Positions 1,418-49,271 of a DNA stretch of 64,000 nucleotides are shown one piece after another (the first letter of the stretch is position 1; each line of letters begins with the position of its first letter). Under the pieces are notes generated by a model. The model was not told the DNA's origin and did no database searches. It saw nothing but the letters and a program-made list of their open reading frames with translations. Source of the stretch: Platanthera guangdongensis (Eukaryota; Streptophyta; Magnoliopsida; Asparagales; Orchidaceae); NCBI GenBank assembly GCA_039583875.1, contig CM077155.1:11697046-11761045 (forward strand). Reading direction: 5' to 3'. The translations under genes and the position numbers were made by a program.

Positions 1418-1815
1418 GTGTCGACACAACTTCTGCGGAATGTGTCGATACAAGTCCTGTGTGTCGACACAATTACTGCTGGTGTTGACACAATTGATGT
1501 CGACACAATTACTGTTGGTGTCGACACAGTTGGTGTCGACACAATTGGTGTCGACAGAGTTGCTTCTAGTGTCGACACAGTTGGTGTCGACAGATGATCT
1601 GTGTGTCGACACAACTTATTCTGGTGTCACACAACCTGGCTATCTGGTGTCGACACAGTCTTGCTATTTGGTGTCGACACAATCTTGCTCAAGTGTCGAC
1701 ACAACATTTCCCAAGTGTCGACACAATTTGTCTGGTGTCGACACAGCCTTTCCCAAGTGTCGACACAATTACTATCTGGTGTCGACACAGACTTTCTTCT
1801 GGTGTCCACACAATC
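1418..1815. repeat. GTGTCGACAC palindrome array in A LTR
   Basis: I count 13 exact copies of the 10-bp perfect palindrome GTGTCGACAC plus several one-base variants (ATGTCGACAC, GTGTCGACAG), separated by short variable spacers rich in AATTACTG, AGTTG and TTTCCCAA. Spacing is irregular, about 15-40 bp, unlike a CRISPR or a head-to-tail satellite. Every copy contains a SalI-type GTCGAC core with two CpGs. The same word occurs in C and D. Confidence 0.9.
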
Positions 1816-1847
1816 TGGCTGAGTCTTTGACAAACTGTTGAAGGTTG

Positions 1848-3493
1848 TGAAAGTCCACCTAGTGTCAACTATGTTCACCTATGGGGGGGGGGGGAATAGG
1901 TGACGTGCAGCGCTTTTGCGGAATTTAAAGATTGTACCTGCACAAAAAAAATAAACAGCACAGCACACAGAGTATACAGCCAATTTATAGTGGTTCCCCG
2001 ACTTGGGTACATCCACTTTCCCCCTTCGACCTATCTCCCAACAAGGGACGACTCGGTCACTTCTCCAACAGGATTGAAATTCAATCCTTGCACTATCGGA
2101 AGGAACCCTTCCACACGTAGGAGTCAACACTCCCACAAACCGGGTTGCACCCAACCCTTACAACTAGGAACCAACTTTCCTTTACAACAAAAGTAAAATA
2201 GTATGTACAAGAAATACAAACTACGTGTGGAGACTACGGTGTCCCTCTTTGTTGACGACGTGGTCTTGAAGTCTACAAAGAGTCCACAACCTTGGTATCT
2301 CTTGGAGAGGATCTCCCCGGAACCGGCGGCGGCAAGAAGGGCGGCGGCTAGGTTCACGGGATCGGCGGCGACGACGATGTGCGGCTGCTGTACTTTAGAG
2401 ATCCAAACTTCGTAGCGAAGCTAGCTAGGTCTACCAATGGTCACACTAGGATCAATCGTCTCGATCGATTCGGATGGGGAAGGATTTCCCGATCTACAAA
2501 TCGAGAGACAAGAGATCTCCGGTTAGACACGTGAGACTCTAAGCTTAGCTAAGCTTCTATCGACCGGAGATCTAGAAGAAACCACGACCAAGACCGGTGA
2601 TCTATACTCTCGCGCGGCGACGGAGGCGGCGGCGGAAATCGCGAACTAGGTCAAGTCGCGGCTCCCGTTTTTCTTTTCTTCTTCGCTGATTTTACTATGC
2701 AAAAATACCCGTGTATTTATACACTGTAGATACTTACAATATGACCGTTGTGGGTCCCACACGTAGATACCCGAAATCCGGTTCAAAATAGTCCAGCGGC
2801 AGAAACCGGTCCAGCAGCATCTCGAGAAATTGCCAAGTAAAATTCGTCGAGAATCATTGGTGATTCTCGACGAATCGGCAAGAATCAGTTAATGATTCTC
2901 AATGATTCGTCGAGAATCACTAGTGATTCTCGACGATTCACTTGTTGATTCTCAACGAATATAACTTGGTTTTCATGATCTGCTCAACGATGGGTTCGGC
3001 GAGAATCATTAGTGATTCTCACCGAATCTTACTTGGCACCGTTTTGAGGTAGCCGAAAAGAGTCGGCGAGAATCACTAATGATTCTCGACGATTCGGCGA
3101 GAATCACTAGTGATTCTCGCCGAATCGGCGAGAATCACTTGGTGATTCTCGTCGAATTTTACTTAGACGAATTTTCGTCTTTCCACCCAAGAGCTGCTCC
3201 TTGACCCATCCTTGCTCCTTGTCTTCTCTTGCATAAACATGGCCCTGTACTTGAAAGTAAGTGCACTCCAATGGAGAGAGTACACGTAGGCCAACACACT
3301 GATCTGCTCAATGAGGGATTACGTCGTGCAGACCCGTGTATATTGACCTACTGCACCCTGACATTGGTGTGCACTTAGCGTGGAAGAACTGCAAGCACAA
3401 CTTAAGAAGTTTCATCAAATACATTGTGAATTCATCTTAGCTTGACAGGGTGGCTTCCTCAAATCCAGGTGATTGTGAATACAATACCCAACA
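1848..3493 (-). repeat. 3' LTR of element B
   Basis: Begins TGAAAGTCCACC and ends CCCAACA on the plus strand, adjacent to the complement of a polypurine tract. It pairs with 8865-10474. The visible differences are scattered substitutions, a GGC-repeat length change near 2630 and one extra hairpin unit near 3095-3125, so this copy is about 36 bp longer. A core promoter block lies near 1984-2018. Confidence 0.93.
2842..3158. repeat. Inverted-repeat (hairpin) array in B 3' LTR
   Basis: About seven units of the form TTCG(T/G)CGAGAATCA, 3-5 bp, TGATTCTCG(A/C)CGAA, each an almost perfect inverted repeat of 30-35 bp with arms up to 15 bp. The arms vary (GTCGAG versus GGCGAG), mostly with matching changes on the other side. 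The 5' LTR copy (9854-10138) has one unit fewer. Confidence 0.9.
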
Positions 3494-3511
3494 ATCTCCC
3501 CCTATTTGACG
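3494..3511 (-). other. Polypurine tract of element B
   Basis: The minus strand reads CAAATAGGGGGAGAT directly before the 3' LTR. The same tract precedes the 3' LTRs of C (mutated), D and I and is a Sirevirus hallmark. Between it and the ORF3 extension (3512-3745) I see only AT-rich sequence with ATATAT runs. Confidence 0.85.
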
Positions 3512-3745
3512 AAGTAAAAACCCTACTAGCTAAGATGAATAACACCAATCAAATAATAAAAACAGCATTCAGAAGTTAAACATGCAGCACAAGAGAATAT
3601 AAGCAACCAGATCAGGACTTGAGTCATTCACAAATTCAAATATATATACCAATATATATATACACATATAATCTCAGAATTGTTCATATAATAACAATAA
3701 ACATTAAATGTTCTTAAGAGAAAATGACAAGCTATAAATTGTTGA

Positions 3746-4369
3746 CTATTTTTCCTTAGCTAAGTCATCCTTGAATTTTTGCGCCAAGTACTTCTTCCTT
3801 TGCCTCTCCATATATTCTTTAGGCTTCGGATAATATCTGGGAGGAGGAACTTTATCTGCATCCGTGTTGTTTCTGAAGAAGATGTTTCGTTTTGCTTCAT
3901 ACGTCTTGTGCATTTCCCACTCATACTGGCTATATACTTCGTTTCGATTGAGTTCTCCTTTTTCTTGTAGCCAGAAGGTGTCCAAGATGATGTTCTTTGA
4001 AACTGGACTCCACTTTTCGTTTCGTACTTCCTCCTCACTTAGTCTGATTCTCTTCTCAGCTAGTGACTCCTTGGATGTCCCTTCTTGAGCTTGTCTCTTG
4101 CCCCTGACTTTTGCTAGGGTCTCTTGATCAAACATGCTCCTCAGTTTAGCTTTGGAAATAGCCCTAGCATCAGCTTCACTTATGGGAACATCTGCAACAC
4201 TTGCACTTAATCCCTCAGCAGCACTTACTCCCTCAGCGGCCGTAGAAGTCTCAGGAGCATGAATACTCACAGGATGATTTTCAGGCAAGGCGACGCCTAA
4301 CGCCTGGTGGAGCATCCACCAGCTGCTGTCATAGATGTATTTGTTTGACTGTTCGAAGTTTGTGATCAT
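3746..4369 (-). CDS. ORF3 C-terminal module of B (WSP...YYPKP protein)
   Basis: A 207-aa open frame in the same reading frame as the 539-aa ORF3 upstream, separated by two TAA codons about 50 nt apart. Its C-terminal half carries a module shared with C (41922-42425) and I (49521-49913): a WSP-x-S/T-x-x-I-I-L start (about residue 117), a Y-S-x-x-E-W-E block, and a YYPKP-x-x-Y-x-E-R-Q end (about residue 180). I know no function for it. The charged, Lys/Arg-rich tail suggests a nucleic-acid or nuclear role, but that is inference. It may be translated by readthrough, by splicing or not at all. Confidence 0.7.
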   Translation of the reverse strand: MITNFEQSNKYIYDSSWWMLHQALGVALPENHPVSIHAPETSTAAEGVSAAEGLSASVADVPISEADARAISKAKLRSMFDQETLAKVRGKRQAQEGTSKESLAEKRIRLSEEEVRNEKWSPVSKNIILDTFWLQEKGELNRNEVYSQYEWEMHKTYEAKRNIFFRNNTDADKVPPPRYYPKPKEYMERQRKKYLAQKFKDDLAKEK

Positions 4370-4423
4370 GATTTATTGAAGCTCGGCCATCTTAGCTATA
4401 TACTCTTTCTCCCCCTTTTTGGC

Positions 4424-6043
4424 TTAGACCGCTATGGAGTTTGCATAAGAATGCAGTGACTCATCAATATGCTTGGTAGTTCTGGTGAATTCAGTGACCA
4501 AGGCCTGCTGATTGGCGTTGAGAGTGACCATATTACCGTCGAACTTTTGAATGTTGTTTGCTACAACATGAGCATTCTGATTTACTACAGCAAGAGTATC
4601 AGTGTTCTTTTTCAATTCGGCCATAAGAAGTGTGACAGCCTCGCCGGCCGCGGTATACTTTTCTTCAAATTTCTTCTCCATCGCGTCAAGTTTATGATTG
4701 ATCTCCACCATATTCTTGAGCATGAGATTTTCAGATGTCTTAATCCTTTTCAACAGTTTATTCTGAGCTTTATCAAAGGAGGCTTTAAGTTCATTCACTA
4801 TGCCCTGAATGACATTTACATTGTGAGTGGCTAGCTCATCTCGTAATGGAAGAGCCGGAGGCACTTCTTGGCCTTGCTCATCAGCAAACGCATCTGTAGA
4901 GCTGGATACAAGCACAGTCTCTAATGGGGGAATGCTGGCGGCCTCTGTAGATTTTTCTGACTCCCCCTCCACTGGTGCATGCTTGTCAGATGGAGGTTCA
5001 AAGAGATCCGGAGTCTCCAATGCTTCATGTCCCTCATTCCCGTCTTCCTCTCCGTCATCATCCATGAAATCATCTTCATCAGCAGCCTCTTCCAACTCTT
5101 TATCAGCAGTCTTCAGTACAGTAGCTTCGGCTCCTTGATCGTTTCGGTTCGGGGCCTCCCCATGCTCCAGCTCAGGTTCACTTTCTTCATGTAGATCTGC
5201 CACAGCATCTCTGGCCAGCTGGGAGATGTCAGATACTACATCAGTATGAGGGGGTAGAGGCTCCCCCTCGATTCCTGCAGTCAAGGTATCAGGAATTTCA
5301 CTGGAAGTGACTGCTGGAGATACTCCCTGTTGTTCTTCCACGACAGTCTGCCAAATACGCCTCTGCCATCGGTCAAACACACTTGAGTCCATCTTCTTCA
5401 AGTAGTGTAGAGGAACACCTTTACTCATGTCAAATTTGTCTCCATTTAGCTGATTTAGATACAGAGTTATGATTCGGCCAAAACTCGGAGAGCTCAAGGT
5501 GTCCTTTATCTTCTCGAACAGCAACGCCCCCCAGTTGAACCTTTTACGGCAGACAATAGATATCAGGATCTTGAACATATCCGCTGAGATATGGTCATGA
5601 GAGTCCGGCTTGCAGATGAGCACCTTTCCGATTATGTCAGACAGAAGCTTCCCTTCTTCATTCATATCCTTGCGCTTGATCGACCGAGTTCCTCGTGGGA
5701 GACCACAGAATAGGAGAGTCCTGCTTTTGTCTTCTTCCTCAAGATAGTCCTCGTCCTCCGTGCTAGAGAGCTGCAGGAAGCGGGTCAGCTTGCTGGCAGA
5801 CATCTTGACCTTTGCCCCAGCCACCTTGCTTTTGATTAGTGAGTCGCCATTCCGGAGTCTTGCGGTAGCGAAGAACTCCAGCACCTCTTTGTCCAAGACT
5901 TTGCAAGGGTGCTCCAGGATGAATGATAGCCCAGCCTCTTCCAGCATCAGAATAATGTTTCTGAATTCGTCCGAGGCGTGAGAGAACCCAGTTCGAACTA
6001 GCTCGCAACCAGTGACCAACCCAGCAGTTGTCCTTGGAGCCAT
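4424..6043 (-). CDS. ORF3 of element B (Sirevirus extra ORF, orphan protein)
   Basis: Intact 539-aa ORF in sense orientation in the position of the Sirevirus 'env-like' gene. Residues about 1-230 form a globular domain shared with ORF3 of C and D: a KEVLEFF-like start, the motif L-x-D-I-I-G-K-x-L near residue 135, HDHIS, R-x-N-W-G-x-L-L-F, F-G-R-I-I, and F-D-R-W-Q-R near 225. It resembles the plant-restricted domain often annotated 'putative plant transposon protein'; I am only moderately sure. Residues 230-390 are acidic and low complexity, and the last 120 residues look coiled coil. I see no signal peptide or membrane segment, so an envelope role is not supported. A possible splice acceptor (CTCCCCTTAG) lies 7 nt before the ATG. 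Confidence 0.82.
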   Translation of the reverse strand: MAPRTTAGLVTGCELVRTGFSHASDEFRNIILMLEEAGLSFILEHPCKVLDKEVLEFFATARLRNGDSLIKSKVAGAKVKMSASKLTRFLQLSSTEDEDYLEEEDKSRTLLFCGLPRGTRSIKRKDMNEEGKLLSDIIGKVLICKPDSHDHISADMFKILISIVCRKRFNWGALLFEKIKDTLSSPSFGRIITLYLNQLNGDKFDMSKGVPLHYLKKMDSSVFDRWQRRIWQTVVEEQQGVSPAVTSSEIPDTLTAGIEGEPLPPHTDVVSDISQLARDAVADLHEESEPELEHGEAPNRNDQGAEATVLKTADKELEEAADEDDFMDDDGEEDGNEGHEALETPDLFEPPSDKHAPVEGESEKSTEAASIPPLETVLVSSSTDAFADEQGQEVPPALPLRDELATHNVNVIQGIVNELKASFDKAQNKLLKRIKTSENLMLKNMVEINHKLDAMEKKFEEKYTAAGEAVTLLMAELKKNTDTLAVVNQNAHVVANNIQKFDGNMVTLNANQQALVTEFTRTTKHIDESLHSYANSIAV

Positions 6044-7212
6044 TGCAGATCTAAGGGGAGAAGCCCTATTCTACGCTTAATCAAAAATCAAAAAGGAAGC
6101 GATACTAGTGATCAAGTCCAAGTGAGGGTGAGGGGATACCTAACGGTGTAGACGGTGAGTTAGTTCGAGTGGAGAAATTCCTGGAGGCAAGAATTGAAGC
6201 CGGAAGAGCGTCCAAGAGCAAAGTGAGCGTCCTGCGGGAAACTTGCGGTGAGAAGCGATGAGAAGTGATGAAAGGTGAGAAGCGGTGAGCGTCCTGCGGG
6301 AAACTTTTTGATATGGAGAGATTCCAGCGGGAATCAGCGGGATACCTTCGATGGAGATCGGTTCGGCGAGCTTTCCTGCAGGAGTCGGCGAGTTTCCGGT
6401 GGAGGAGTTGATTCGGCGAGCTTTCCTGCGGGCTTCGGCGAGTCGGCGGGTAAGGGAAGAGTCGGCGGAAGAGATTTTGCGGGATTTCTACAGAATGTGA
6501 AGAGTATTCTGCGGTAAGTTTCCAGTGGAAATGAAAGGTCGGCGGGATTTCTTTGCATTAACGACAGGTTATAATAAGGGTTTAACAAGTTATAACGGGA
6601 TCCCTTTGCTAAGAATCGGTGGGAATTTGTCTAAGTTGTAATCGAAGGGTTTCTTTGTCTAAGTTGAAATCGAAAGATTTCTTTACTAGGAATCTTCAAG
6701 GTAAGAGGCATTGCAGCATTTTCGAATTCTTCTGATGTCAAGTGAATTTAAAAATTATAAATATATATATATCTTAAAGCCAATCTATTTGGTTTTGAAC
6801 GGGGCTTTTCCAAACACTTCTTGATGTCAGCGTGAGTTTTCGAGATTCACAATGACTTATCTTCGTTAACTCTTTATTGATGTATAAAAGGTTTGTATGT
6901 ATCGAGTTAACCTATCCTTAGATGAGCACACATATATGTATAAGCATAAGTATAAATGTACATATATATATAGATATATATGTAAATGTGGATACAATAT
7001 GACTCAAGTCCTTGAACTGATCAAAAGTACCTGGGATTATGAGAGGTAACTTTTAGTCTCTCTGACTATAACATACCAGGTGCTCAATGTTAGAATGCTT
7101 ATGTAGATATCACTTCTGTTATTTCAGATGCATGTTCCAATTCAGTCTTGGAACACCTACTGTCTAATTCCCCTCATATTTACGGGAACCTAGACTACCC
7201 TGCAAGAAAGAA
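6044..7212. other. gag-ORF3 spacer of B where pol is missing
   Basis: No coding sequence is visible. The part nearest ORF3 (about 6170-6480) has four or more copies of TTCGGCGAG or TCGGCGAG with repeated CTTTCCTGC and TCCTGCGGGAAACTT words. TTCGGCGAG is also an arm of the hairpins in B's LTR. The middle (6740-7000) is ATATAT-rich. The end next to gag (7180-7212) still matches the first bases after the gag stop of C (TTGCAGG), locating the pol deletion breakpoint there. Confidence 0.7.
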
Positions 7213-8790
7213 TTACCTTACCTTAGGAACCCAAAACATATTGGGTCCTGGGTTCCTGTTAGCATAAGCACTCGACTGCCTTCCCCCAGAAAACCTGTCA
7301 GGAAGACTACCTCTGTCCTGTGAATGTGGATAAGCCCTTGCCTTTGGCACAGAGGGGTTGTGCCAACAGTCGATGGCAAAGTGCCCCACTTTGCCACAGC
7401 ACCAACATGGGTGAATGTTGTATCGCCGTTTCCGACCAGATATAGTGACTGAGGTAGTCACGGTCCTAGGTCTAAACGGGATAGAGCATGATCTCCTCAC
7501 AAAATTTCCTCTTCCATCGTGACACGTGGAAGGGTGGAAGGAATGCATGTTGTAAGCGTCATGAGGCCGGGAAGGTGGTGCATTTCTTTCAGGCATCCCC
7601 CTTCCTGAGGCCTCATGAAAACTTACACCATGACTTCTAACCTCCCTATCCCGTGTCCTCAGGTGGTGAGAAGTCTTCTGTGAGTTGGGATATGCAGATT
7701 CGCACCGAGTTGGGGCAGTGGCAGTGAATACAAAGGGCTCAGAATGAGCCTTATGTATTCTCTCATGGGTGGCCATGACGGCCCTTGCACTACGGGTGTC
7801 TCCACATGGGGACAGATCACCCTTGCAGTGACCACGACTATTCCTGTGGTCATACCTGAAGGCATGATGAGTTGCCTTCCTGCTTGGAGTGGGGGGTCGG
7901 AATACTATTTCCCCATTTCTCCACGAATTGATAATCCGGGAGATCCACCCGTTTTCTTGTTTTCTCTTTATAGCATCAACCTTGGAAAAGTTTGATACTA
8001 TTCTTTTCTCATTCTCTAGACTACTCTCTAGAGCTGAGATCTTAGAGTCCTTGACCTTGTTGGACGCCAATTGGAGAACCAACAAGATCTTCAGTCGAGC
8101 AATCTCTTGAGCTTGCTCCTCAGCAAGTAGGTTGCTTTCCTGAAGGGCTCTCTTCAGGGAATCAGAATTTTCTGGAGGAGAGCAGTTCCTGTCTTCAGAA
8201 AGTTCAAAAGATATGGGGCAGGATGAAGAAGTTACCTGCTCTTCCGAGTTATTGTCATTAGAGCAAGTGACCATTGTTTCATCCTCATCAGAGCTGCCTT
8301 CCTCACTGGCCTCTTCAGTCTCTGACACGGACACTGGAGCTCTGATGTTGTCCGAGAGATCCATGCCTTCATCTTCAGAGGTGAGGACCCCCACACAGGC
8401 TTCATCCTCTGGTTGACTGCAGATTTCAGCTTTCTCTGACCCCCCCATCAACTCTGAGATCATCACCCACATAGATTTAGCCGTCCTGCATTTTTCCAAT
8501 TTAGAGCGAGAAGCTCCAGACCAGATATCCAAGATAATTTGACGAATCCTCTCGTCCAAGTTAAATAGTGACAGTTCTGTCTCTGACATCTCTGCAATGC
8601 ATTTGGGCACTTCGATATTCTTTCCAGAGCAAGAGGTCTTCATAGGAACAAAAGGACCCTCTTCCAGGATGAGAGATGCTCGAGGATCGATGACCTCCAA
8701 GTGACATGACACCCTCATCCTCCAGACGGGATAATACTCCTTTGTACATGCGGGAAGTCTTAGTGGCGATATCTCATAATCCAGCTCCAT
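7213..8790 (-). CDS. gag: Gag of element B
   Basis: Intact 525-aa copia Gag starting MELDYEISPLRLP, 75 nt inside the LTR end. It matches the Gag of C in order: an N-terminal capsid-like region with an E-x-x-V/I-W-x-x-R-V start, then a Ser/Glu/Asp-rich acidic stretch at about residues 140-210, a coiled coil (about 210-275), a basic His/Arg-rich stretch and a CX2CX4HX4C zinc knuckle (CWCCGKVGHFAIDC, near residue 463). It ends WVPKVR then stop, as in C where a stop also separates gag from protease. It would package RNA in virus-like particles. With no pol of its own, enzymes must come from another element. Confidence 0.9.
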   Translation of the reverse strand: MELDYEISPLRLPACTKEYYPVWRMRVSCHLEVIDPRASLILEEGPFVPMKTSCSGKNIEVPKCIAEMSETELSLFNLDERIRQIILDIWSGASRSKLEKCRTAKSMWVMISELMGGSEKAEICSQPEDEACVGVLTSEDEGMDLSDNIRAPVSVSETEEASEEGSSDEDETMVTCSNDNNSEEQVTSSSCPISFELSEDRNCSPPENSDSLKRALQESNLLAEEQAQEIARLKILLVLQLASNKVKDSKISALESSLENEKRIVSNFSKVDAIKRKQENGWISRIINSWRNGEIVFRPPTPSRKATHHAFRYDHRNSRGHCKGDLSPCGDTRSARAVMATHERIHKAHSEPFVFTATAPTRCESAYPNSQKTSHHLRTRDREVRSHGVSFHEASGRGMPERNAPPSRPHDAYNMHSFHPSTCHDGRGNFVRRSCSIPFRPRTVTTSVTISGRKRRYNIHPCWCCGKVGHFAIDCWHNPSVPKARAYPHSQDRGSLPDRFSGGRQSSAYANRNPGPNMFWVPKVR

Positions 8791-8850
8791 GCTTCTGACA
8801 CCGGTGGCAGGATACTACTCAAGGTGTTAACCTTTTTGATGAGCAACCTC

Positions 8851-8862
8851 GCTCTGATACCA
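8851..8862 (-). other. Primer binding site of element B
   Basis: The minus strand reads TGGTATCAGAGC, a perfect match to the initiator-Met tRNA site, two bases from the 5' LTR. Confidence 0.92.
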
Positions 8863-9001
8863 CTTAAAAGTCCACCTAGTGTCAACTATGTTCACCTATG
8901 GGGGGGGGGGGGAATAGGTGACGTGCAGCGTTTTTGCGGAATTTAAAGATTGTACCTGCACAACAAAAATAAACAGCACAACACACAGAGTAGACAAGCA
9001 A

Positions 9002-9036
9002 TTTATAGTGGTTCCCCGACTTTGGTACATCCACTT
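9002..9036 (-). promoter_or_regulatory. Core promoter block of B 5' LTR
   Basis: Minus strand: AAGTGGATGTACCAAAG, then CGGGGAACCACTATAAAT. The TATA box is about 140 bp from the inner LTR end and points towards gag. It shares the block found in A, C, D and I. Confidence 0.8.
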
Positions 9037-9853
9037 TCCCCCTTCGACCTATCTCCCAACAAGGGATGACTCGGTCACTTCTCCAACAGGATTGAAATCC
9101 AATCCTTGCACTATCGGAAGGAACCCTTCCACACGTAGGAGTCAACACTCCCACAAACCGGGTTGCACCCAACCCTTACAACTAGGAACCAACGTTCCTT
9201 TACAACAAAAGTAAAATAGTATGTACAAGAAATACAAACTACGTGTGGAGACTACGGTGTCCCTCTTTGTTGACGACGTGGTCTTGAAGTCTACAAAGAG
9301 TCCACAACCTTGGTCTCTCTTGGAGAGGATCTCCCCGGAACCGGCGGCGGCAAGAAGGGCGGCGGCTAGGTTCACGGGATCGGCGGCGACGACGATGTGC
9401 GGCTGCTGTACTTTAGAGATCCAAACTTCGTAGCGAAGCTAGCTAGGTCTACCAACGGTCACACTAGGATCAATCATCTCGATCGATTCGGATGGGGAAG
9501 GATTTCCCGATCTACAAATCGAGAGACAAGAGATCTCCGGTTAGACACGTGAGACTCTAAGCTTAGCTAAGCTTCTATCGACCGGAGATCTGGAAGAAAC
9601 CACGATCAAGACCGGTGATCTATACTCTCGCGTGGCGACGGAGGCGGAAATCGCGAACTAGGTCAAGTCGCGGCTCCCGTTTTTCTTTTCTTCTTCGCTG
9701 ATTTTACTGTGCAAAAATACCCGTGTATTTATACACTGTAGATACTTACAATATGACCGTTGTGGGTCCCACACGTAGATACCCGAAATCCGGTTCAAAA
9801 TAGTCCAGCGGCAGAAACCGGTCCAGCAGCATCTCGAGAAATTGCCAAGTAAA

Positions 9854-10138
9854 ATTCGTCGAGAATCATTGGTGATTCTCGACGAATCGGCGAGAATTAG
9901 TTAATGATTCTCGATGATTCGTCGAGAATCACTAGTGATTCTCGACGATTCACTTGTTGATTCTCAACGAATATAACTTTGTTTTCATGATCTACTCAAC
10001 GATGGGTTCGGCGAGAATCATTAGTGATTCTCGCCGAATCTTACTTGGCACCGTTTTGAGGTAGCCGGAAAGAGTCGGCGAGAATCACTAATGATTCTCG
10101 ACGAATCGGCGAGAATCACTTGGTGATTCTCGTCGAAT
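9854..10138. repeat. Inverted-repeat (hairpin) array in B 5' LTR
   Basis: Same array as in the 3' LTR but with six units. The unit near 3095-3125 has no counterpart here, showing that whole hairpins are gained or lost between sister LTRs. Confidence 0.88.
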
Positions 10139-10479
10139 TTTACTTAGACGAATTTTCGTCTTTCCACCCAAGAGCTGCTCCTTGACCCATCCTTGCTCCT
10201 TGTCTTCTCTTGCATAAACATGGCCCTGTACTTGAAAGTAAGTGCACTCCAATGGAGAGAGTACACGTAGGCCAACACACTGATCTGCTCAACGAGGGAT
10301 TACGTCGTGCATACCCGTGTATATTGACCTACTGCACCCTGACATTGGTGTGCACTTAGCGTGGAAGAACTGCAAGCACAACTTAAGAAGTTTCATCAAA
10401 TACATTGTGAATTCATCTTAGCTTGACAGGGTGGCTTCCTCAAATCTAGGTGATTGTGGATACAATACCCAACAGGTTG

Positions 10480-10607: not shown

Positions 10608-11259
10608 CAACGGTTTGAACTTCTGCTTCAGTCTCTGCGACAATGGCGCGAGGAAGAAGATGAAGTTCCGCCTCTTTACGAAAAGTCAAATCTCTAAAAG
10701 TTAATTTCTTTTTGTCGATCTCAATCCTTTTATCTTCCGCCGTCCAACGGCTCTTTGACGCGTGGGCCCGCTTGGATTTGCCAGCTGCAATCTTACTTTT
10801 GCATTAAACGCAGCACAGAAGGATTGCGATGCCGTTTGCCACGTACTATTGACTTCCCACAAATATTTTGAATTCTAATGACATTTACAGACGTCAGCAT
10901 CTGTGGATATAGCCAAATTAAGATAGTTCATCCCAGTCATTGAGTGTGTTTAGTGAACTTTCATCACTCAATGAATTTGTACTTAGCCAATACTTCTGCA
11001 CTGCCAGGCGTTGAGTGTGTTGAGTGAACCTTCATCACTCAACGCTTTTGGATTTGGCCAATATCTCTATTGTTGATAGGCGTTGAGTGCATTGACTTCA
11101 CTCAATGCTTTTGTCCTTAGACAAACTTTTATGTTGATAGGCGTGGAGTGCGATAAGTGAGCCTTCATCACTTAACGCCTTTGGACTTAGCCTCTTCTTT
11201 GAAGTCTGTTAACTTGCTGAGGTGTTGAGTGAACTGTCTTCACTCAAATATTCTATACT
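10608..11259. repeat. Fragment of LTR-like element X
   Basis: This flank hosts both A and E. It has no ORF. Its right half (10938-11249) holds five imperfect hairpins of the form GCGTTGAGTG ... CACTCAACGC, one every 60-75 bp, joined by a recurring TTTGGA(C/T)TT(A/G)GCCAAT-like spacer. Its organisation matches the LTRs of the Sirevirus-like elements, so it is probably part of a further family, but neither terminus nor a coding domain is visible. Confidence 0.55.
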
Positions 11260-11977
11260 TGTTGAAACCGAAAATTCGGTCTCTTGTGGAGTTCACCCTT
11301 GGGGAAGGGGTGATCGCGCACCTACTTCTCTCCTGCAAGCAAAACAACAAGGGAAACAAAGAATAACTGACCCAAGGGCTCGGCAGGAGGACCCACCACA
11401 CACCCAGAAGATCTTAGAGCGCTTCCCCTCTTTAGTCAAAGGCCAAGCTAAGGTATCCTCAGGAAGCTCTTGAGAGATGGAGCAAGGGGGCACATGAAGC
11501 ATGCATTCTGAGGTACCACTTGGGTCCTATTTATAGATTTCTGAAAATGGCCTGCAAATAACCAACTTTCGCTATTCTGAACGGCTATGTGCAGTCCAGG
11601 TTGGCCTGCCAACAACGTAACTCTGATGTTCTGGAGGGCTATGGGCAGGTCAGGGGCAAAATAGTAAAAAATACCTCATGGACCTGGGCGAGCTGAGGAG
11701 CTCGACCACCCCTGAATATCCTGCTCGCTTGCTGTCTACAGAGCTCCTTAGGGTGAGTGCGAGCTGGGCCACCATGCTCGCCCTTCGGGCGGCCCCCATT
11801 AGTCGAGCTTAGCTCGATGAAACCCGAACTTTGCTCGTGGAATGCCTAGCTCGGGGTCGGCGAATGCCGAGCCCGGGCTTCAGATCTCCTCTGCTGAGCT
11901 CGCCTGGGGCCTGGGTGATCTGAACCGGCCGGTCTGGTTCCTGGCAACCCCATACGCCGAATACGGGGTTGTACACA
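11260..11977 (-). repeat. 3' LTR of element E
   Basis: 718 bp. On the minus strand it starts TGTGTACAACCCCG and ends CGGTTTCAACA, as in F (49991-50676) and G (55945-56792). A TATA box (CTATAAATAG, minus) is at 11527-11536 beside GGACCCAAG, a context shared with F and nearly with G. The interior is crowded with GAGCTCG, GGCGAG and GCTCGCC words. Confidence 0.87.
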
Positions 11978-15630: not shown

Positions 15631-16235
15631 GACGAGGGGGGGGGGGGGGATCGACAGTCCGGGGAGGGGGGCAAAGGCCGATGTATTTCTTTTTGTTTTG
15701 TAATCTCGCCGAGGCGAGCTCCTCCTGTAACTATCAGTATTTAATGGAACACATTTTTGATTATGATCTTGCCTATTTTTTCTGTCTTCTTTCTGGATTT
15801 TTCTGCTGTGCCTTTCTTGCCTGCGAGCCCTTCCCCTGGCGACCTCGCGTAGATAGGTTTTTGTGAGTGGGATGGTTGCTAGGGCTCGTTCCTGAGAAAA
15901 CACCTTGAGGGCTCGCCAAATCGTAGATGATCTGGGGGTGGACTATCCACCGCATTGGGTACACTACCCCCAACTCGCTCGCGAACTGCCCATAAGTTTA
16001 TCAATATAAAAACAAAATCGAAAAATTTCCCAAGTAAAATTGAGGAGGGGTAAAATGACCTGCCAGAGCTTGCCTCCTTCCGGAGAGATCTAAGGGCCCG
16101 ACTTGCCGCCCTTCTGCCAGGGCCGAGCTGAGCTTGGCGAGCCTGAACTCGCCTGTGCAGAGCCTTCTTCTCCTCTTTTTTAGAAAAAAAATACCAAACT
16201 CCTTGGAAACCAACTAGAGAGTAACGGACTTGCCC
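15631..16235. other. Region between antisense gene 2 and minisatellite of E
   Basis: Starts with a G-run (15637-15650). AT-rich 3'-UTR-like sequence of gene 2 follows (15740-15800). The rest has GCTCGCC-type words and no convincing ORF. Confidence 0.5.
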
Positions 16236-37400: not shown

Positions 37401-37669
37401 TGGATATAAGGTTATGTTTTAAGTCCTCTTACATATGTCACCTTTTTGAAGGTCACTGCTCCAATGCTTACTCTTCCATACCCTTCTGACTGACCACTCT
37501 TTGAGTCTCCAAATATCACCTTTGGTCCTAACTTGGACTTATAGCTGGAGAGATTTGCTTTGCTGCCAGTCATGTACTTGGAGCAGCCACTTTCCAGGTA
37601 CCAGGTCTGACTTAGCCTTGGACATCTATTCACATGTACCTGCATTAAAGATAAAGATCAATTGTTCTT
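34461..37669 (-). pseudogene. pol: Element D pol (protease, integrase, RT, RNase H), nearly intact but broken
   Basis: Minus strand. The protease motif reads YLESGCSKYMTG near 37600, with the catalytic Asp changed to Glu. A damaged GAG-pre-integrase region (37115-37411) follows. Integrase (35939-37114) has VDLFGP, RSDHGTEF and AERKNR carrying D, D and E. RT starts near 35930, with stops at about 35936 and 35612 and a frameshift near 35455; YVDDIIFGST is at 35385-35414. RNase H carries GYSDADYAG, STAEAEYMA and the ADIFTKPLDE end and is intact to the stop at 34461. The domain order and ending are standard for copia. Confidence 0.9.
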
Positions 37670-39781: not shown

Positions 39782-39924
39782 GTCTGTGAGGAGGATAAGT
39801 CCAATAACAGAATAGAAACAAACAGATCTAACTAAGAGATCTTTGGGTTCAGTTGTTAGCCTGTACAACCAATCAGGTATGGTAATTTAACCAACCTGGA
39901 AGATGTGGTATTATAACCAACCTG

Positions 39925-39936
39925 GCTCTGATACCA
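39925..39936 (-). other. Primer binding site of element D
   Basis: The minus strand reads TGGTATCAGAGC, two bases from the LTR, a perfect initiator-Met tRNA match. Confidence 0.93.
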
Positions 39937-40165
39937 ATTGAAAGTGCAGCTAGATCTGATATACTCTAGAGGGGGGGGGGGGGGGTGAATAGAGTATATG
40001 GTGAATTTATTTTTAAAACTTTTACAACTGCTGTTGTATTTTAGGTGTGTGTGTGCAGGGAAGCAAATGCAATAAATCAAAAAGCAGCAATGGACTAATC
40101 ACAGTATATTCACAGAGCAAGGCCAGAAAATAAAAGGAAAAGAAAGCAACCAGACGACACAAGAA

Positions 40166-40200
40166 TTTTATAGTGGTTCCCCAAATCTGGGTAGTCCACT
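40166..40200 (-). promoter_or_regulatory. Core promoter block of D 5' LTR
   Basis: Minus strand: AGTGGACTACCCAGAT, then GGGGAACCACTATAAAAT. Same block as in A, B, C and I, about 235 bp from the inner LTR end. Confidence 0.8.
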
Positions 40201-40980
40201 CTTCTACCACCCTGGTAGGAATCCACTGCAGGAAGGGGTTGATCAGGTGTCCTGACACCAATGTTGTTTTGATCAGGTTCCCAAAAACCAAACCCTCAAG
40301 TCTTTTGGAGGGAGACTTGCAACTAGAATAATTTTGAAGAGAATTAAAACCCTGTACAGAGGTGGAGTGAGAGGGTGATGAGGTCTTCTCTTTCTCAAGT
40401 CAGATGAGAAGACTTGTGGAATGTTGTTTAGCAGCTTTGCTCCCCCTGAGATGTAGAAAGAGTCAGGAAGAATGTTGGAGCACTGCTTCAGGGTGATAGC
40501 TCTTCAGAGACCTAGAATTCCAGGTCTAGAGGAGGTCTTCAGGAACTTCTTGTAACTGATATGAATGTATTGTTTCTTGAAGTTATCCTGAGTGAAAGCA
40601 GATGAAGAAGACTCTTGATATTGATGTAGTGTTCTTCTTCTTCTTCTCGATCAGTTTCTCTCTGGGCCAAGAATGAATTCTTTTTCTTGTGTTGTCTGAA
40701 TCACTGTCTATCCTTTTTTTTTGATGTCGTTGTTATGTATCTTTGTATCTATATCATAAGAACGCATTCGAATTTGAATATCGAGCAGTAATGGCAGACG
40801 GCCTGGAAGGGAAGTAGCAATTAATCATTTCCCCAACTGTTTCCATGGGAAAATGGTATGTAATAATCCAGAATTAACTGCGCATTCCAACGGTAGTATT
40901 CTGTGAGGAATTACCATTAATTGTTCAGGAATCAACGCCATGGATTGAGACGGGAACAAAAGAAGACCTAGTCTGGAATT

Positions 40981-41706
40981 GTCGACCGAAGAACATAATT
41001 CGTCGAGCTGAGTTTTGAGTTCGTCGAGCTGAGCCTGAGTTCGTAGAGCTGAGCTTGAGTTCGTCGAGCTAAGCTGAGTTCGTCGAGCTGAGCTGAGTTC
41101 GTCGAGCTGACAGTCTTCATTCGTTGAACAGACAATCTTCAATATCAGACAACCATTATTCGTTGAGCAGAGAACCAAATTCGTCGAGCTGAGAATAAAC
41201 TTCGTCGACCTGAGAAAAGTTCTGGACTTGGACGAAATACTCTGCATCTGCTGAAATGTTGTATCGATACAAATTGTTGTCGACAGATTGATCTTAGTGT
41301 CGACTCAAATCCTCTGGTGTCGACATAAGCTGGTGTCGACTGAAATCCTGGTGTTGACACACGCTGGTGTCGACTCAAATCCTGGTGTCGACACAAATCG
41401 TCTGGTGTCGACACAAACCCTAAGTGTCGACACAGATTTTCTGAGTACAAAAATCGTCGAGTAAAGATTAGCATTCGTCGACCTGAAAAGCTATGAACTT
41501 GAGGTCCAAGTTCGTCGAGCTCAGAATATAATTCGTCGACCGAAGCATGAAGCTTGACTTGGAGAAATTCTGAAGTAGTCCTGATAAGCTTGAGGTAAAA
41601 TCCCAGTGTTCGTCGAGCAAAGAACGCGGTTCATCGAGCCCAGCACTGTGAATTATCTCACGATCGTCGAGCGCAGAACTCCCTTCGTCGAGCTGCGTTC
41701 GACGAA
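40981..41706. repeat. TTCGTCGA and GTGTCGACAC array in D 5' LTR
   Basis: Counterpart of 30242-30968. Some GTGTCGACAC words here have changed at CpG positions (for example GTATCGATAC, GTGTTGACAC), as expected for methylated cytosine decay. Confidence 0.88.
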
Positions 41707-41899
41707 CGTCGAACTCATTTCACTTAGTCTGAAAAACTGATAGATCTGGAGTTCCTGACAGTCTTGAAGAAGTCTGGTCCGTCTGAAGTTGAAATAGAGG
41801 ACTGTCCTAGACTCTAGGACACAAACTTGACCCAGACTATACATGATGGGTCACATCCTAAGTCAGTGAACCTAGCCCAAATCAACTAGGGATCCAACA

Positions 41900-42425
41900 G
41901 ATACATCATGAGGTACAATCTATGTACAGTCCTCCAGAAGGTAATAAAAATATTATCCTTGAGAAAGTAGATAAGCCTGTGCTAGAGGCAGTATTGAAAG
42001 AGCAAGAAACTCTTTTGTCTAAGAAGAGATTCAGAGAACAAGCAGAGTTAAAGCCAGATTTTGAGCAGTGGAGCCCAACATCTAGGAATATTATACTAAC
42101 TGCTTGGAAAGCTACAAAGGACAATACCCTAGAAAGGGGCAAATGTTATTCTGAACAAGAATGGAGAAAACATGAAGCCAGGCAAGAAGCCATAGTTCAG
42201 TACAAAAGAAAGGCAAAACTTGGGAAGCTACCTCCTAATGCACAAGAGCCTAGCAAATATTTCCCAAAGCCTTATCATTATTTTGAAAGACAAAAGATAA
42301 GGGCTGAAGAGCTAAAGAAGAAAGATCAAAAGGGCAAGAAGCCAGTTGATGACACTGATGTTCCAGTTCAAGCCAAGATTCAATCAGGCAAAGGCATTGT
42401 CATCAAGGAGCCAGAGCAGCCTTAG
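41900..42425 (+). pseudogene. Element C ORF3, 3' part after D
   Basis: Continuation of C's ORF3 beyond D, beginning with D's second target copy GATAC. The last 168 codons (41922-42425) are open and carry the C-terminal module seen in B and I: QWSPTSRNIIL, a CYSEQEW block and KYFPKPYHYFERQ, then a Lys-rich tail. On its own this piece has lost the N-terminal domain. Function unknown. Confidence 0.82.
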
Positions 42426-42690: not shown

Positions 42691-44446
42691 TGTTGGGTAC
42701 ATTGGAAAATGTGTACCAGATTTGAAGAAGCCTCACCGTACTCAATGATATGCATCAAGGTGTATTTGATGTATTTTGAGTTTATATGTGCAGTTTAAGT
42801 AATTGCAGGAAATGCAAAAAAATTTCTAAGTCCATGTGTCGACACCTAGAGAAGCAATGTCTACACTTATGAAGACTTATGCCGATACTGGAGAAAAGCT
42901 GTGTTAACACTTGAAGTTAGTTGTGTCGACACCAGGAAAGGCTTTGTCGACACCAGAAGAAATTGTGTCAACACCAGGAGGCAGTGTCGACACACAGAGA
43001 AGCAAAGTTGACATCAATTATGTCGACACCAAAATGCAGTGTCGACACACAGGAATACTTAGTCGACATCAAATGTATCGACACATAGAGGCAGTGTCGA
43101 CACACAGAAGTATTCGTCAACATCAACTGTGTCGACACACAGGACTTGTGTCGACACACAGCAAGTTTCAACAAAGTTAAAGTAAAGAAGTACTTGTGTC
43201 GACACAAAGGAGATGTGTCGACACACAACAAGTTCCAACAAAGTTAAAGAAAAGAAGGCTTGTGTCGACACACAGAATCAGTGTCGACACATTCTAAAGA
43301 AGTTGTGTCGAGAAGCTGTTACAAAACAGAAGGAGTTGTGTCAACACCACCAAGGCATGTGTCGACACTTAGTCCACTTGTGTCGACACTTAGTCTATTT
43401 GTGTCGACACATAATGAAGATCAGTCTCGACACTTTCAGACAGAGATAGTATTTCAATAAGTGACTGGATGACTTGACAGCTGCCATTTCTAACTGGTCT
43501 ACCACAACTGTCAAAGCTGTCAGAAGATTGTTAGAAATCGGATCACCCGGTCACCATGGAGGAAGACTATATAAAGGCCTTCTCCTTCAACATAAAGTGA
43601 TTTTGATCACAGTAAAGATAGAAGATCTACACAGATATCTAACAACACAAAAAGAAGAAGACCTTCGATAGAAGATCTAAGAAGTTCGAGAGAGAGCTCC
43701 ATCTAAGAAGTGCAGTTGCTGAACCAGGCTGCCAAAAAAGATTCAGATTGTGATCTGAATCTCAAGTCAGAAGCTGATTGAAGATCAACTTCTCAAGAGT
43801 TCAAACCTACTGAGTTCAGATTCAAGAAGCTTTGAAGAAAGCTAAGAGAGGTTGTGCTCTGCCATCAAGTTCTTCCAAGAACTGTTTAAGAAGCCATCCA
43901 TCCCTTCTCTCTCTATCTGGGTGGTGGTTAATTACTTTGTAAACACTATTTTCTGTAAGATCTGTTCTAGATCTGAGTTGTAAGCCTATTATATAAAGGC
44001 TGAGTGTAGGAGAATATTTTCTCTGAGTGGTAGGGCTGTGAGCCTGAGGTGTAGGAGATTGTGATCTCTGAGTGTAGGCCTTGTTGAAGGCTGAGGTAGG
44101 GCAGTTGGCCTGAGTTGTAGGAGTGTGGATACACTCTGAGTTGTAGGAACCTGGTTTGGGTTCTGAGCTGTAAGATCTGAGGATCTGAGGTGAAGTGCAG
44201 AAGTTAGGCCGAATCTAGTACACTGCAAGATAGGCAAAGGGGGAAAGTGGATGTACCCAGACCTTGGGGAACCACTATAAATACTGTGTGCACTCTGTGA
44301 TTGATTGTTTCTATGATTGTTGTGCTGTGTTAGCAGTAGAATTTGCAGTGTATTATTAGTTAACTGAACAGCTTTTCTGCTTTAAAAGAAAAACAGGAAT
44401 TACACCTATTCACCCCCCTCTAGGTGGTTAGGCACTAATTCTTTCA
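42691..44446 (+). repeat. 3' LTR of element C
   Basis: 1756 bp, pair of 19246-21002, starting TGTTGGGTACATTGG and ending ATTCTTTCA. The GTGTCGACAC array is at 42836-43437, and a core promoter copy with its TATA is near 44275. Confidence 0.93.
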
Positions 44447-46183
44447 CTCTATCGCCTCAAACTCCCCGTTGATCTGAGAAGCTACCACCATGGAGTCGGT
44501 GAGGACCTCCACATCCAACACCCCCAGCTCCTTGTCCAGGTGCAACCCTGCTATCACGACCTCATACTCGGCCTGATTGTTAAACACCCCCACCACTAGG
44601 GAATGCTTCCATGAAGCACCATCAACTGTGTCGACACACAGGACTTGTGTCGACACACAGCAAGTTTCAACAAAGTTAAAGTAAAGAAGTACTTGTGTCG
44701 ACACAAAGGAGATGTGTCGACACACAACAAGTTCCAACAAAGTTAAAGAAAAGAAGGCTTGTGTCGACACACAGAATCAGTGTCGACACATTCTAAAGAA
44801 GCTGTGTCGAGAAGCTGTTACAAAACAGAAGGAGTTGTGTCAACACCACCAAGGTATGTGTCGACACGTAGTCCACTTGTGTCGACACTTAGTCTATTTG
44901 TGTCGACACATAATGAAGATCAGTCTCGACACTTTCAGACAGAGATAGTATTTCAATAAGTGACTGGATGACTTGACAGCTGCCATTTCTAACCGGTCTA
45001 CCACAACTGTCAAAGCTGTCAGAAGGTTGTTGGAAACCGGATCAGCCGGTCACCATAGAGGAAGACTATATAAAGGCCTTCTCCTTCAACAGAAAGTGAT
45101 TTTGATCACAGTAAAGATAGAAGATCTACACAGATATCTAACAACACAAAAAGAAGAAGACCTTCGACAGAAGATCTAAGAATTTGGAGAGAGAGCTCCA
45201 TCTAAGAAGTGTAGTTGCTGAACCAGGCTGCCAAAAAAGATTCAGATTGTGATCTGAATCTCAAGTCAGAAGCTGATTGAAGATCAACTTCTCAAGAGTT
45301 CAAACCTACTGAGTTCAGATTCAAGAAGCTTTGAAGAAAGCTAAGAGAGGTTGTGCTCTGCCATCAAGTTATTCCAAGAACTATTCAAGAAGCCATCCAT
45401 CCCTTCTCTCTCTATCTGAGTGGTGGTTAATTACTTTGTAAACACTATTTTCTGTAAGATCTATTCTAGATCTGAGTTGTAAGCCTATTATATAAAGGCT
45501 GAGTGTAGGAGAATATTTTCTCTGAGTGGTAGGGCTGTGAGCCTGAGGTGTAGGAGATTGTGATCTCTGAGTGTAGGCCTTGTTGAAGGCTGAGGTAGGA
45601 CAGTTGGCCTGAGTTGTAGGAGTGTGGATACACTCTGAGTTGTAGGAACCTGGTTTGGGTTCTGAGCTGTAAGATCTGAGGATCTGAGGTGAAGTGCAGA
45701 AGTTAGGCTGAATCTAGTACACTGCTAGATAGGCGAAGGGGGAAAGTGGATGTACCCAGACCTTGGGGAACCACTATAAGTACTATGTCCACTCTGTGAT
45801 TGATTGTTTCTGTGATTGTTGTGCTGTGTTAGCAGTAGAATTTGCAGTGTATTATTAGTTAACTGAACAGCTTTTTTGCTTTAAAAGAAAAACAAGAATT
45901 ACACCTATTCACCCCCCCTCTAGGTGGTTAGGCACTAATTCTTTCACTCTATCGCCTCAAACTCCCCGTTGATCTGAGAAGCTACCACCATGGAGTCGGT
46001 GAGGACCTCCACATCCAACACCCCCAGCTCCTTGTCCAGGTGCAACCCTGCTATCACGACCTCATACTCGGCCTGATTGTTAGTGATGGGAAAGTGCACC
46101 ACCACCGTTTGCCCAATTTTAGTTCCCTGGGGGGCTCTCCAAGATCACCCCACCACTAGGGAATGCTTCCATGAAGCACCATC
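43121..46183. repeat. Tandem duplication of C LTR end plus flanking E
   Basis: 43121-44619 (LTR interior to LTR end plus about 175 bp of E's pol) is repeated at 44620-46183. At the joint, E's GCACCATC runs into the LTR's CATCAACTGTG, sharing CATC. The first E copy lacks about 60 bp present in the second (GTGATGGG...CCAAGATC). The second LTR copy (44620-45946) therefore has no start and is not a solo LTR. Confidence 0.9.
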
Positions 46184-47297
46184 TACCTTCACCTTCCATG
46201 GAGTCGGATGAGTGAGCTCTTCCTCCGCCACCTCAATCACATAATCGGCCAAAAAGTCGGTCATCACTTGAGCCTTGATCGAGAGGCAGGGGACGAAGGA
46301 GATGTCGAACTCGCTCAACTCCACCGACCACTTAGCCAACTTGCCTGAGTGCTCCACCACCTCAAAGATGTTGCGGAGGGGATGGTTGGTCACTACTCGG
46401 ATGGAGTGTGCCTGGAAATAGGGCCGCAGCCTTCAGGCTGAGATGATCATGGCGAAGGCCAACTTCTCCAAAATTGGATATCGAAGCTCGAACTTCCTCA
46501 GGACCCGACTCACGTAATATATGGGGAGCTGCTTCTTCCCCTCTTCAAGAACTAGGACGGAGCTCAAGGCCTCCGCCCCGACCCCGAGATACAAAAATAT
46601 GTCCGCCTCCTCCTTTGGCCCTTGGAGCAATGGGGCTTGCGTCAATTGCATTTTAAGAGCTTGGAATGCCTCCTCGCACTCCTTGGTCCAATCGAATTTT
46701 TGGCCCCCCTTAGTGTTTTGAAGAAGGGGTAGCACTTCTCCCCCGCCCGGGAGAGGAACCTGCTTAACCCTGCCAGCTTCCTTGTCAACCGTTGTACCTC
46801 CATAGTATTCTGTGGCGACCCCAGCTCCATGATAGCCTTGATATTATCAGGGTTTGGATCGACCCCCGCGGGGGTGAGGAGATGCCCCAAGAACTTCCCC
46901 ATGCTAGCCCCGAAGACACACTTCAGAGGGTTCAGCTGTATCTTGTACTTGCGCAGGGTGGCAGAGTCTCCTCCAGATCCTGGAGGTGAGAGTCCACATC
47001 CTGACTCTTTATCATGAGATCATCCACGTACACCTCCAAGTTCCTTCCCTTCTGTTCCAGGAAGACCCTGTCCATCTTTTTTTGATAGGTCGTCCCTACG
47101 TTCTTCAGCCTAAAGGGCATCATTTTATAGCAGTAGTACCCATCACCCGTGATGAACGAGACGCCCTTGACGTCCGAGGGGTGCATCCTGATTTGGTGGT
47201 AACCTAAAATGCATCCAAAAAGCTCATTACAGAAAAATCGATGGCTGAATCAACCAGCGCGTCGATCCGAGGCAAGGGATAACTGAAAGATAATAGT
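45947..47297 (-). pseudogene. pol: Element E pol: RT, RNase H and start of second RNase H, broken
   Basis: Minus strand continuation of E's pol. RT at the right carries SFITGDGYYCYKMMPF and the YVDDLMIKS catalytic motif (47019-47030 for YVDD). Then come the connection (KCVFG-like), RNase H (F-x-W-T-K-E-C-E-x-A-F, L-P-I-Y-Y-V-S-R-V-L) and the start of a second RNase H (KVKVDGASWKHS). Frameshifts near 46930 and 46740 and a stop near 46430 disable it. I interrupts it at 47298. Confidence 0.87.
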
Positions 47298-49271
47298 TGT
47301 CAACCTAAATCACCTAGAGGGGGTGAATAGGTGAGTTTTGCGTCTTTTGCGGAAAAAAGAAATCTTAGAACACAGCACAGATCTATCTACCAAACTATCA
47401 CAGACGAGACAAGATTTTATAGTGGTTCCCCGATCTTAGGTCCATCCACTTTCCCTCACCGATCTAACAATGAACTAGACTCGGCTACTCCACTATCTCG
47501 GATTGAAAATCAATCCTACCCTCAGAACAAAGTTCCTACAATCTCAATCCAATCAACTGGATCTACAACTCGGAAGAAGCACCTTCCTACAAACTCGAAG
47601 TGGAAAACTCCTACACTCGGAGAAAAATTCTCCTACAGAAATGAAATACAAGTATTGAAAAATACAAACAGTAATATTGTCTGGTTCAGATCTGAAAATA
47701 AAACAGGAACTGGAATCTTCTTCTTGGCGTGCAGCTTTATCAGAAAAGTTGAAGAAAGATTCTCGGCAACAGTAGATCTAAACTCCTTGCTTCCACGATC
47801 GGACAGATGATGAGTATGTGAAAATCGATCTCGATCTGGAGAGCTTTTTCAGTCTATTTCCTCTGAAGATCGAAACCTTTGCCGGAGAAGAACAGAGGCA
47901 GCGGCGGCTTTCGTTCCGTGAAGAGAGAGAGAGAGGAAACAACGATTCCTTTTTGGAAAGCGGCAGCTGCAAAACTTAGAATAATTTTCTTCTTGAAAGA
48001 TTTGTTTTCTGATTAGGGTTTGTCGATTAGAGAAGACTTTTTTATAGGAGTACTGATAACGGTCATAATTTGTTTTAATGACGTACACGTGGACCAATCA
48101 TGTCACAGGATTTGAAAATCTGTCAAATCTGGACTTAGAAGAAATTTCAGAGAAAATGAGGTCATATACACGAGTGGGTATAAAACTACTCGAGTAGGTC
48201 AAGGACTACTCGAGTAAGCAGAGAAATATTACTCGGGTATATAATTCAAGACTACTCGAGTATGTAGAAGACAACTACTCGAGTGCATATAATCAACTAC
48301 TCGAGTACTTTAGAATATCTACTCGAGTACATAGAAAAGTTTTTCGGGAAGGAGTTGAGCTACTCGAGTACAAGTTATACTACTCGAGTCGGCAGAATTG
48401 AACTACTCGAGTGGGTAGAAGAACTACTCGCGACAAACACTTAGAAATATTCTGCACACGGGAAAAACAACTACTCGCGTAGTCAGATTAAACTACTCGA
48501 GAGGGAAGAAATCTTCTCGAGTAAATGAATGGCCTACTCGAGTATTTCTTAACTACTCGACACAGATGAGAGAGTTACTCGACATAGTGTCGAGAACTAC
48601 TCGAGTATATAAAGTACATACTCGAGTAAATGACTTAGAAAAATTCTGAAGAATAGGAAGAATATACTACTCGAGTATGAACTACTCAAGACAGAATGAG
48701 CTACTCGAGTATAAGACTTGTACTACTCGAGTGTTTTACTTAGAAAAACTTGGAAACTAAATTTTGGGCAACTCAAGTAGGAAGAGTGATCTACTCGAGT
48801 AGTTAAGTAAGCTACTCGAGTATGTCAGTGAACTACTCGAGTGTTTTACTTAACTTCACGAGAGGAATTTTTTTAATCGAGTATGCATAAGTTTTACTCG
48901 AGTATATCTCAAGTAATCTACTCGAGTAGTTAAAGACCTACTCGACAAAAACACTTAGAAAAATTTCTGTCAGCAATTTTTCTTCTACTAGAAGGGAATC
49001 AACACCAAGTCTTTACACAGTCCTATAGCTTGAGTATGAAGTGTATCCCAATAGAGAGGCTACACATGAGTCAACACTTTGGAACACACAATGAGGGATT
49101 ACACTGTATGGTCGTGTGTTTGGTGACCCTTTGTAGACTGACATTGGTCTACACTTCCCATTGGAGTCCTGCAAACACATAACTCAAGCAAAGCATCAAA
49201 TACAACATAATTCATCTTAGTTCCAGGGTGACTTCATCAAATCTTGGTTAATGTGAACATAGTTCCAAACA
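47298..49271 (-). repeat. 3' LTR of element I
   Basis: 1974 bp from TGTCAACCTAAATCACC to TTCCAAACA. Shares CACCTAGAGGGGGTGAATAGG at its start with C (mirror) and partly D, and the promoter block at 47414-47450. The outer half carries the CTCGAG word array. Confidence 0.87.
48168..48955. repeat. ACTACTCGAGTA palindrome array in I LTR
   Basis: Roughly thirty copies of ACTCGAGTA-type words, most as CTACTCGAGTA with the XhoI-type CTCGAG core, at irregular 15-35 bp spacing, plus variants ACTCGACA, ACTCGCGT and ACTCAAG. It is a different word from the other families but shares the TCGA centre. Confidence 0.9.

Follow-up and report, generated by a model that had tools for sequence, protein, structure and literature searches.

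The sequence analysed here is a 64,000-nucleotide window of the orchid Platanthera guangdongensis (contig CM077155.1, positions 11,697,046 to 11,761,045), in which Ty1/copia long terminal repeat (LTR) retrotransposons are nested: element B lies inside an LTR of element A, and element D inside element C (Table 1). Elements B, C and D carry a third open reading frame, ORF3, at the position of the Sirevirus 'envelope-like' (ENV) gene, and arrays of CpG-centred dyad words are found in the LTRs and in the spacer preceding ORF3. Element I is a fragment in which an LTR array is present and the stretch 49593–49739 matches the C-terminal part of the B ORF3.

The elements are Sirevirus-type Ty1/copia retrotransposons. 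The 9-bp Sirevirus primer-binding site (PBS), TATCAGAGC, occurs exactly on the minus strand, adjoining the 5′ LTR, at 381 (A, where the PBS-like sequence is GCTCTGATA), 8851 (B) and 39925 (D); no exact copy lies at the C LTR junction, the single plus-strand match at 17284 being unrelated. Runs resembling a polypurine tract (PPT) adjoin the LTRs of B, D and I. C and D both have integrase/SH3 domains, D also has RVT_2 and gag_2 domains, the pol pieces of C are 52–66% identical to those of D, and similarity of the A gag to that of D lies to the left of the PBS.

Exact GTGTCGACAC occurs 65 times, all within arrays of A (13 copies), C (14 in each LTR, 9 in a duplicated LTR piece and 7 in the ORF3 spacer) and D (5 in LTR1 and 3 in LTR2). 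Exact TTCGTCGA, counted on both strands, occurs 50 times, all within arrays of A (2), B (3 and 4 in the two LTRs), C (1 in the spacer) and D (11 and 13 in the LTRs, 8 in the ORF3 spacer and 8 at the end of gag). In 12 word-and-array tests on 10 stretches, with second LTR copies left out and 200 dinucleotide-preserving shuffles each, 3 to 14 words were observed against shuffle means of 0 to 0.29 and a largest single shuffle of 3; the I array holds 8 exact ACTACTCGAGTA against a mean of 0.01. Information content is mostly 1.2–2.0 bits per column within words (lowest 0.6) and mostly below 0.8 in the flanks, with the exception of the word-adjacent base in A and D (2.0 bits) and of single columns of up to 1.4 bits.

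These counts bear out a preliminary description of the window in assigning GTGTCGACAC to A, C and D, TTCGTCGA to D as its second word, and a word of its own to I. The same description gave each family a private word, which in the strict sense is ruled out, as GTGTCGACAC is common to A, C and D, and TTCGTCGA to A, B and D with one copy in C. Its statement that the word recurs between the upstream gene and ORF3 holds for C and D; the B spacer contains no exact TTCGTCGA and only the variant CTCGCCGAA (3 exact copies, as in the B LTR). In our reading, the B and D words differ mainly by dyad arrangement. The third array of D lies in gag coding sequence, and from 37922 it runs inside an open stretch translating to SSxxDRR-like repeats.

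Distances between words are clustered in several arrays. Intervals of 19–24 bp make up 13/18 in A, 13/20 in C LTR1, 9/12 in the C spacer and 18/25 in I, for which random placement expects 2.3–3.8, and the observed number was reached in 0/5000 draws for each (one mismatch allowed per word, two in the C spacer). The GTGTCGACAC copies of the D LTR have only 2/6 intervals in this range (36, 54, 16, 18, 20 and 19 bp; no simulation). Within each LTR the array occupies the upstream half; C and D have a further array in the spacer before ORF3. By pattern match, without a null model, TATA-like sites follow the LTR arrays of B, C, I and D LTR1, and none follows the D LTR2 array or the B spacer words. 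In the C spacer, a TATA-like TATAAATAG at 26694 follows the last word by ∼48 bp and precedes the ORF3 start by 108 bp, and the D spacer has a weaker site; in D, a splice-acceptor-like TTTTCTTTGCAG at 34063–34081 immediately precedes the ORF3 start codon. Common ancestry of the D LTR and D ORF3 promoters was considered and set aside as marginal, with 29/1000 shuffles reaching the local score.

CpG in C and D is concentrated at the words and around the ORF3 start. The D interior (31163–39938) contains 80 CpG, of which 25 and 26 lie in the two internal arrays, 28 in 33190–34204 (∼20 in the ORF3 N-terminal coding sequence, plus the leader) and 1 in the remaining 7,258 bp. Five D coding stretches (gag, gag2, integrase, reverse transcriptase/RNase H and the ORF3 C part) have 0 CpG each, although 300 synonymous codon draws gave means of 47, 16, 47, 39 and 88 and minima of 30, 8, 31, 24 and 70, respectively; CGN accounts for 0/80 of their arginine codons. 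The C interior (21003–29203) contains 34 CpG, and the spacer array together with the following 310 bp accounts for 29 of them. CpG-free runs stop at arrays, such as 34445–37854 in D, where composition predicts 127 CpG. In the C and D bodies CAG/CTG is not depleted (observed/expected ratio, O/E, 0.94–1.19) and TG and CA are raised (1.21–1.30), the pattern that deamination of methylated CG should leave. Depletion is weaker in B (CpG O/E 0.39 in gag and 0.54 in ORF3) and in other parts of the window (0.71–0.78); the loss is thus a property of C and D.

Between words, CpG O/E is 0.15 in A and, for the two C LTR arrays, 0.10 and 0.27; in these arrays the words retain CpG that their neighbours have lost, which points to selection on the words. 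It is higher in the D LTR arrays (0.44 and 0.48), C spacer (0.62), D gag (0.71), I (0.77), D spacer (0.81) and B (0.94); partial survival of CpG outside words in these arrays, and at the wordless D ORF3 start, may reflect local protection from methylation, and both processes may act. Comparison of LTR copies in C, D and B gave transitions at 14/188 word CpG sites, 15/500 word non-CpG sites, 12/217 CpG sites outside words and 76/4416 other sites (sums by hand). A CpG in one of the two copies was enough to class a site as CpG, a rule that inflates the CpG rates; the C tandem-duplicate pair has 0/21 at word CpG. Once an element has inserted, its word CpG seem to change quickly, like methylated CpG, and with 14/188 transitions a lasting protection of words from methylation in resident copies is unsupported.

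VANC proteins of VANDAL transposons bind family-specific repeated short motifs and remove silencing. For the models of both the B and D ORF3 N-domains, the best VIA row is the VANC21–DNA complex 9LNJ, by a wide margin for B, whose model aligned to VANC21 over residues 12–210; the two alignments share rows, so that the fold matches are not independent of each other. Other PDB chains matched by the B and D models had low scores and were rejected as relatives. Transposase_32 (PF20167) is matched in the B ORF3 below the gathering score, and the C-terminal third of the D ORF3 has basic clusters. The N-domains are 37% (B–C, 108 bits), 26% (B–D, 74 bits) and 19% (C–D, 27 bits) identical, C being represented by a 160-aa fragment. 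Searches for ORF3 relatives, one of which scored 7,991 candidates only, matched at least 10 different proteins, one from a Logan contig and the rest from Platanthera (P. zijinensis and P. guangdongensis); among the matches listed, the closest covers 31% of the query at 89% identity. Pattern scans for relatives in viral and genome contigs gave 33, 4 and 41 matches, none confirmed, and a scan for the word pair matched 1 viral contig (pattern only).

We propose, at a probability of roughly 55%, that ORF3 is a nuclear, word-binding anti-silencing factor with a VANC21-like fold that activates its element via the arrays. The product of the 'envelope-like' gene would be a nuclear, sequence-specific DNA-binding protein, and its N-terminal Transposase_32-like domain is predicted to have the fold of the VANC21 DNA-binding region. 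Its targets would be the arrays that precede the LTR promoter and ORF3 itself, in which CpG-centred dyad words often follow one another at about two helical turns; in D, the array at the gag end would be a further target. Binding would offset silencing locally, presumably with hypomethylation, and switch the element on. Since ORF3 would be expressed from a word-bearing promoter, the loop would be self-reinforcing, like that of VANC on VANDAL. A bolder version, which we hold tentatively and below even odds, is that the Sirevirus 'envelope' gene is a VANC-fold anti-silencing factor with the repeated-motif (RM) boxes of these elements as its targets; with CpG in C and D almost confined to the sites and the surroundings of the ORF3 start, mainly the factor's sites could carry CG methylation, and silencing could be switched at the words alone.

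Several observations weigh against an ORF3 of this kind. Four of the five B ORF3 models are poor, and searches of Pfam and of PDB sequences found no similarity to VANC or DUF1985 at E values up to 10. By sequence, the ORF3 N-domains group B with C, yet GTGTCGACAC is found in both C and D, so that a simple one-to-one code is disfavoured. The suggestion in the preliminary description that ORF3 may be a VANC-like sequence-specific factor gains support in its general form from the predicted fold and the linker-box pattern discussed below, but not in the strict form of one clade, one word; the three ORF3s available are too few for a co-variation test. Two further points, that words are common to elements whose ORF3s differ greatly and that the boxes of Bousios et al. 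matched mainly stress-related plant sites (PMC2829016), favour instead arrays of sites through which host transcription factors would activate the LTR and a promoter internal to the element for ORF3, with a different role for ORF3. Near-identical boxes also reappear in distant Sireviruses (PMC2829016). We consider this explanation unlikely, though it is the strongest competitor: host factors alone leave unexplained the predicted VANC21-like fold, the fact that I, B and C have differing words within a single genome, and the distribution of linker boxes, which Table 3 of Bousios et al. gives for 9/9 ENV-bearing elements and 0/4 elements without ENV (PMC2829016). The latter pattern fits ORF3 as the binding factor.

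Alternatively, the dyads could matter chiefly in RNA form, as hairpins from which small RNAs are made and which either promote silencing or help to evade it. Palindromes of maize Sireviruses are small-RNA hotspots (PMC5311732, PMC10760457), and against 40 shuffles folding energy is low in B (z = −16.9), A (−7.4), the C LTR (−6.9), I (−6.6), the C spacer (−6.2), X (a further repeat, described below; −3.9) and the D spacer (−3.6). The D LTR array, however, is close to its shuffles (z = −1.3), and of the control stretches D ORF3 gave 0.2 but C pol −5.5; strong folding is neither common nor special to the arrays, which rules out hairpins as their common feature. The spacing near two helical turns is also left unexplained, and we regard this alternative as improbable. 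Still less probable is that ORF3 is a true envelope-like gene whose promoter the arrays merely mark. That is the traditional annotation (PMC2829016), and the D ORF3 has one moderately hydrophobic stretch (1.56 over 19 residues), but by hydropathy alone no ORF3 has a hydrophobic N-terminus, the hydropathy peak of the B ORF3 (0.93) falls within its N-domain, and that domain has a predicted VANC21-like fold. Replication slippage alone building functionless words is very improbable, because, while tandem units of ∼55, 67 and 21–23 bp indicate that local duplication contributed, one word reappears in LTR, spacer and gag settings with dissimilar flanks and CpG is kept in words yet lost between them in A and C.

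The anatomy of the arrays is already known in kind. RM boxes, described for 13 Sirevirus elements as palindromes in 8–32 copies, lie before ENV as well as in the upper LTR half and form CpG islands (PMC2829016); at this locus such boxes are likewise present in LTRs and upstream of the ENV-position gene, as a variant word in the B spacer. The CGG-CCG core of 12/13 elements in Table 3 of that paper is absent here, where the core is TCGA/GTCGA; the exception there is Tnd-1 (ACAATCGATTGT), and Vitis CGGTCGACCG may also be compared (PMC2829016). Moreover, words are here common to co-resident families, the D and C bodies are nearly CpG-free, and D has an array in gag coding sequence, whereas Bousios et al. 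list boxes only for LTRs, for the linker and for the start of ENV, and read the downstream gene as an envelope (PMC2829016). The role of that gene in plants is described as highly controversial owing to the cell wall (PMC2829016).

VANC21 acts at its motifs, and the resulting CG methylation loss is local (PMC5735166, PMC10398659). The orchid system resembles VANC/VANDAL in combining a fast-evolving transposon-encoded protein with short motifs repeated in the noncoding regions of its own element (PMC5735166, PMC10398659), and, as predicted by model, in the fold of VANC21 in 9LNJ. It differs in that the carriers are Ty1/copia LTR retrotransposons rather than a MULE, sequence similarity is undetectable, the words are CpG-bearing dyads, and motif binding and hypomethylation are here predictions. 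An extra open reading frame matching PF20167 also occurs in sunflower Athila elements, which belong to the Ty3 lineage; there it was assessed for envelope-like features, and the portions of that report available mention neither word arrays nor a VANC link (PMC11728184). Within the accessible parts of the open-access literature on VANC, PF20167 and Sirevirus CpG, we found no link between VANC and Sireviruses, also in a paper that names both. If our proposal is correct, the restriction of linker boxes to the ENV-bearing elements among those of Bousios et al. (PMC2829016) would be accounted for, and anti-silencing of the VANC type, known from MULEs, would reach a major class of plant LTR retrotransposons. 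On the bolder version, one sequence-specific machinery against silencing would serve two unrelated kinds of plant transposon. The near-total CpG loss outside the sites may also bear on sunflower SIRE elements, in whose central part methylation is reported to fall dramatically at CG but not at CHG (PMC12844716); if CpG is missing from those bodies too, its absence could be the simple cause.

Table 1. Positions of retrotransposon features within the 64,000-nucleotide window.
Feature	Positions	Strand	Details
A, LTR part, split by B	396–1847	−	word array 1359–1789
B LTR copy 1	1848–3493	−	dyad array ∼2843–3157
B ORF3 C-terminal part, separate open stretch	3749–4372	−	
B ORF3, 539 aa	4427–6043	−	residues 1–237 modelled
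B ORF3 spacer	6150–6560	−	CTCGCCGA(A/C) words
B gag-like ORF, 533 aa	7216–8814	−	knuckle-like CWCCGKVGH near its end
B LTR copy 2	8865–10474	−	dyad array ∼9855–10138
C 5′ LTR	19246–21002	+	array 19391–19966
C ORF3 spacer array	26317–26647	+	7 exact GTGTCGACAC, 1 exact TTCGTCGA
C ORF3, broken, three pieces	26802–28882	+	26802–27284, 27428–28141, 28394–28882
D 3′ LTR (own orientation)	29204–31162	−	array 30262–30969, both words
D ORF3, 901-aa open reading frame	31360–34062	−	part modelled 33313–34062
D ORF3 spacer array	34205–34440	−	TTCGTCGA-N7-TCGACGAA dyads
D pol stretches	34464–37150	−	integrase 35942–37150, RT/RNase H 34464–35462; 0 CpG
D third array, near 3′ end of gag	37850–38110	−	
D 5′ LTR (own orientation)	39939–41899	−	array 40999–41706
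C 3′ LTR	42691–44446	+	array 42836–43410
Tandem duplicate of C 3′ LTR segment 43118–44582	44617–46082	+	97.9%
I LTR array	48185–48955	−	ACTACTCGAGT words; PPT-like run near 49270

The B LTR pair is 96% identical over 1645 columns (38 gaps) and has GGTTG on both flanks; the D LTRs are flanked on both sides by GATAC. Between its LTRs (3494–8864), B has gag and ORF3 without a pol match, its interior giving no match at 1e-3 to six integrase, RT and RNase H pieces of C and D. A P. guangdongensis gene model (P0005) likewise fuses a B-like gag and ORF3, hinting at a pol-less form elsewhere. For the broken C ORF3, a match to the C-terminal part of the B ORF3 lies at 42015–42173, beyond the inserted D. 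The tandem duplication in C (44447–46082) takes in most of the 3′ LTR plus flank.

At 10950–11300 (X), imperfect TTGAGTG...CACTCAA hairpins stand in series with 3 exact GCGTTGAGTG, a word that, as had been described, is not CpG-centred. X sits past a short A-LTR remnant, where 10502–10607 matches the D LTR end. Elsewhere, in GC-rich parts of the window, a related 74/145-bp tandem repeat forms three arrays (16235–17159, 55549–55944 and 60954–62024), in both orientations.

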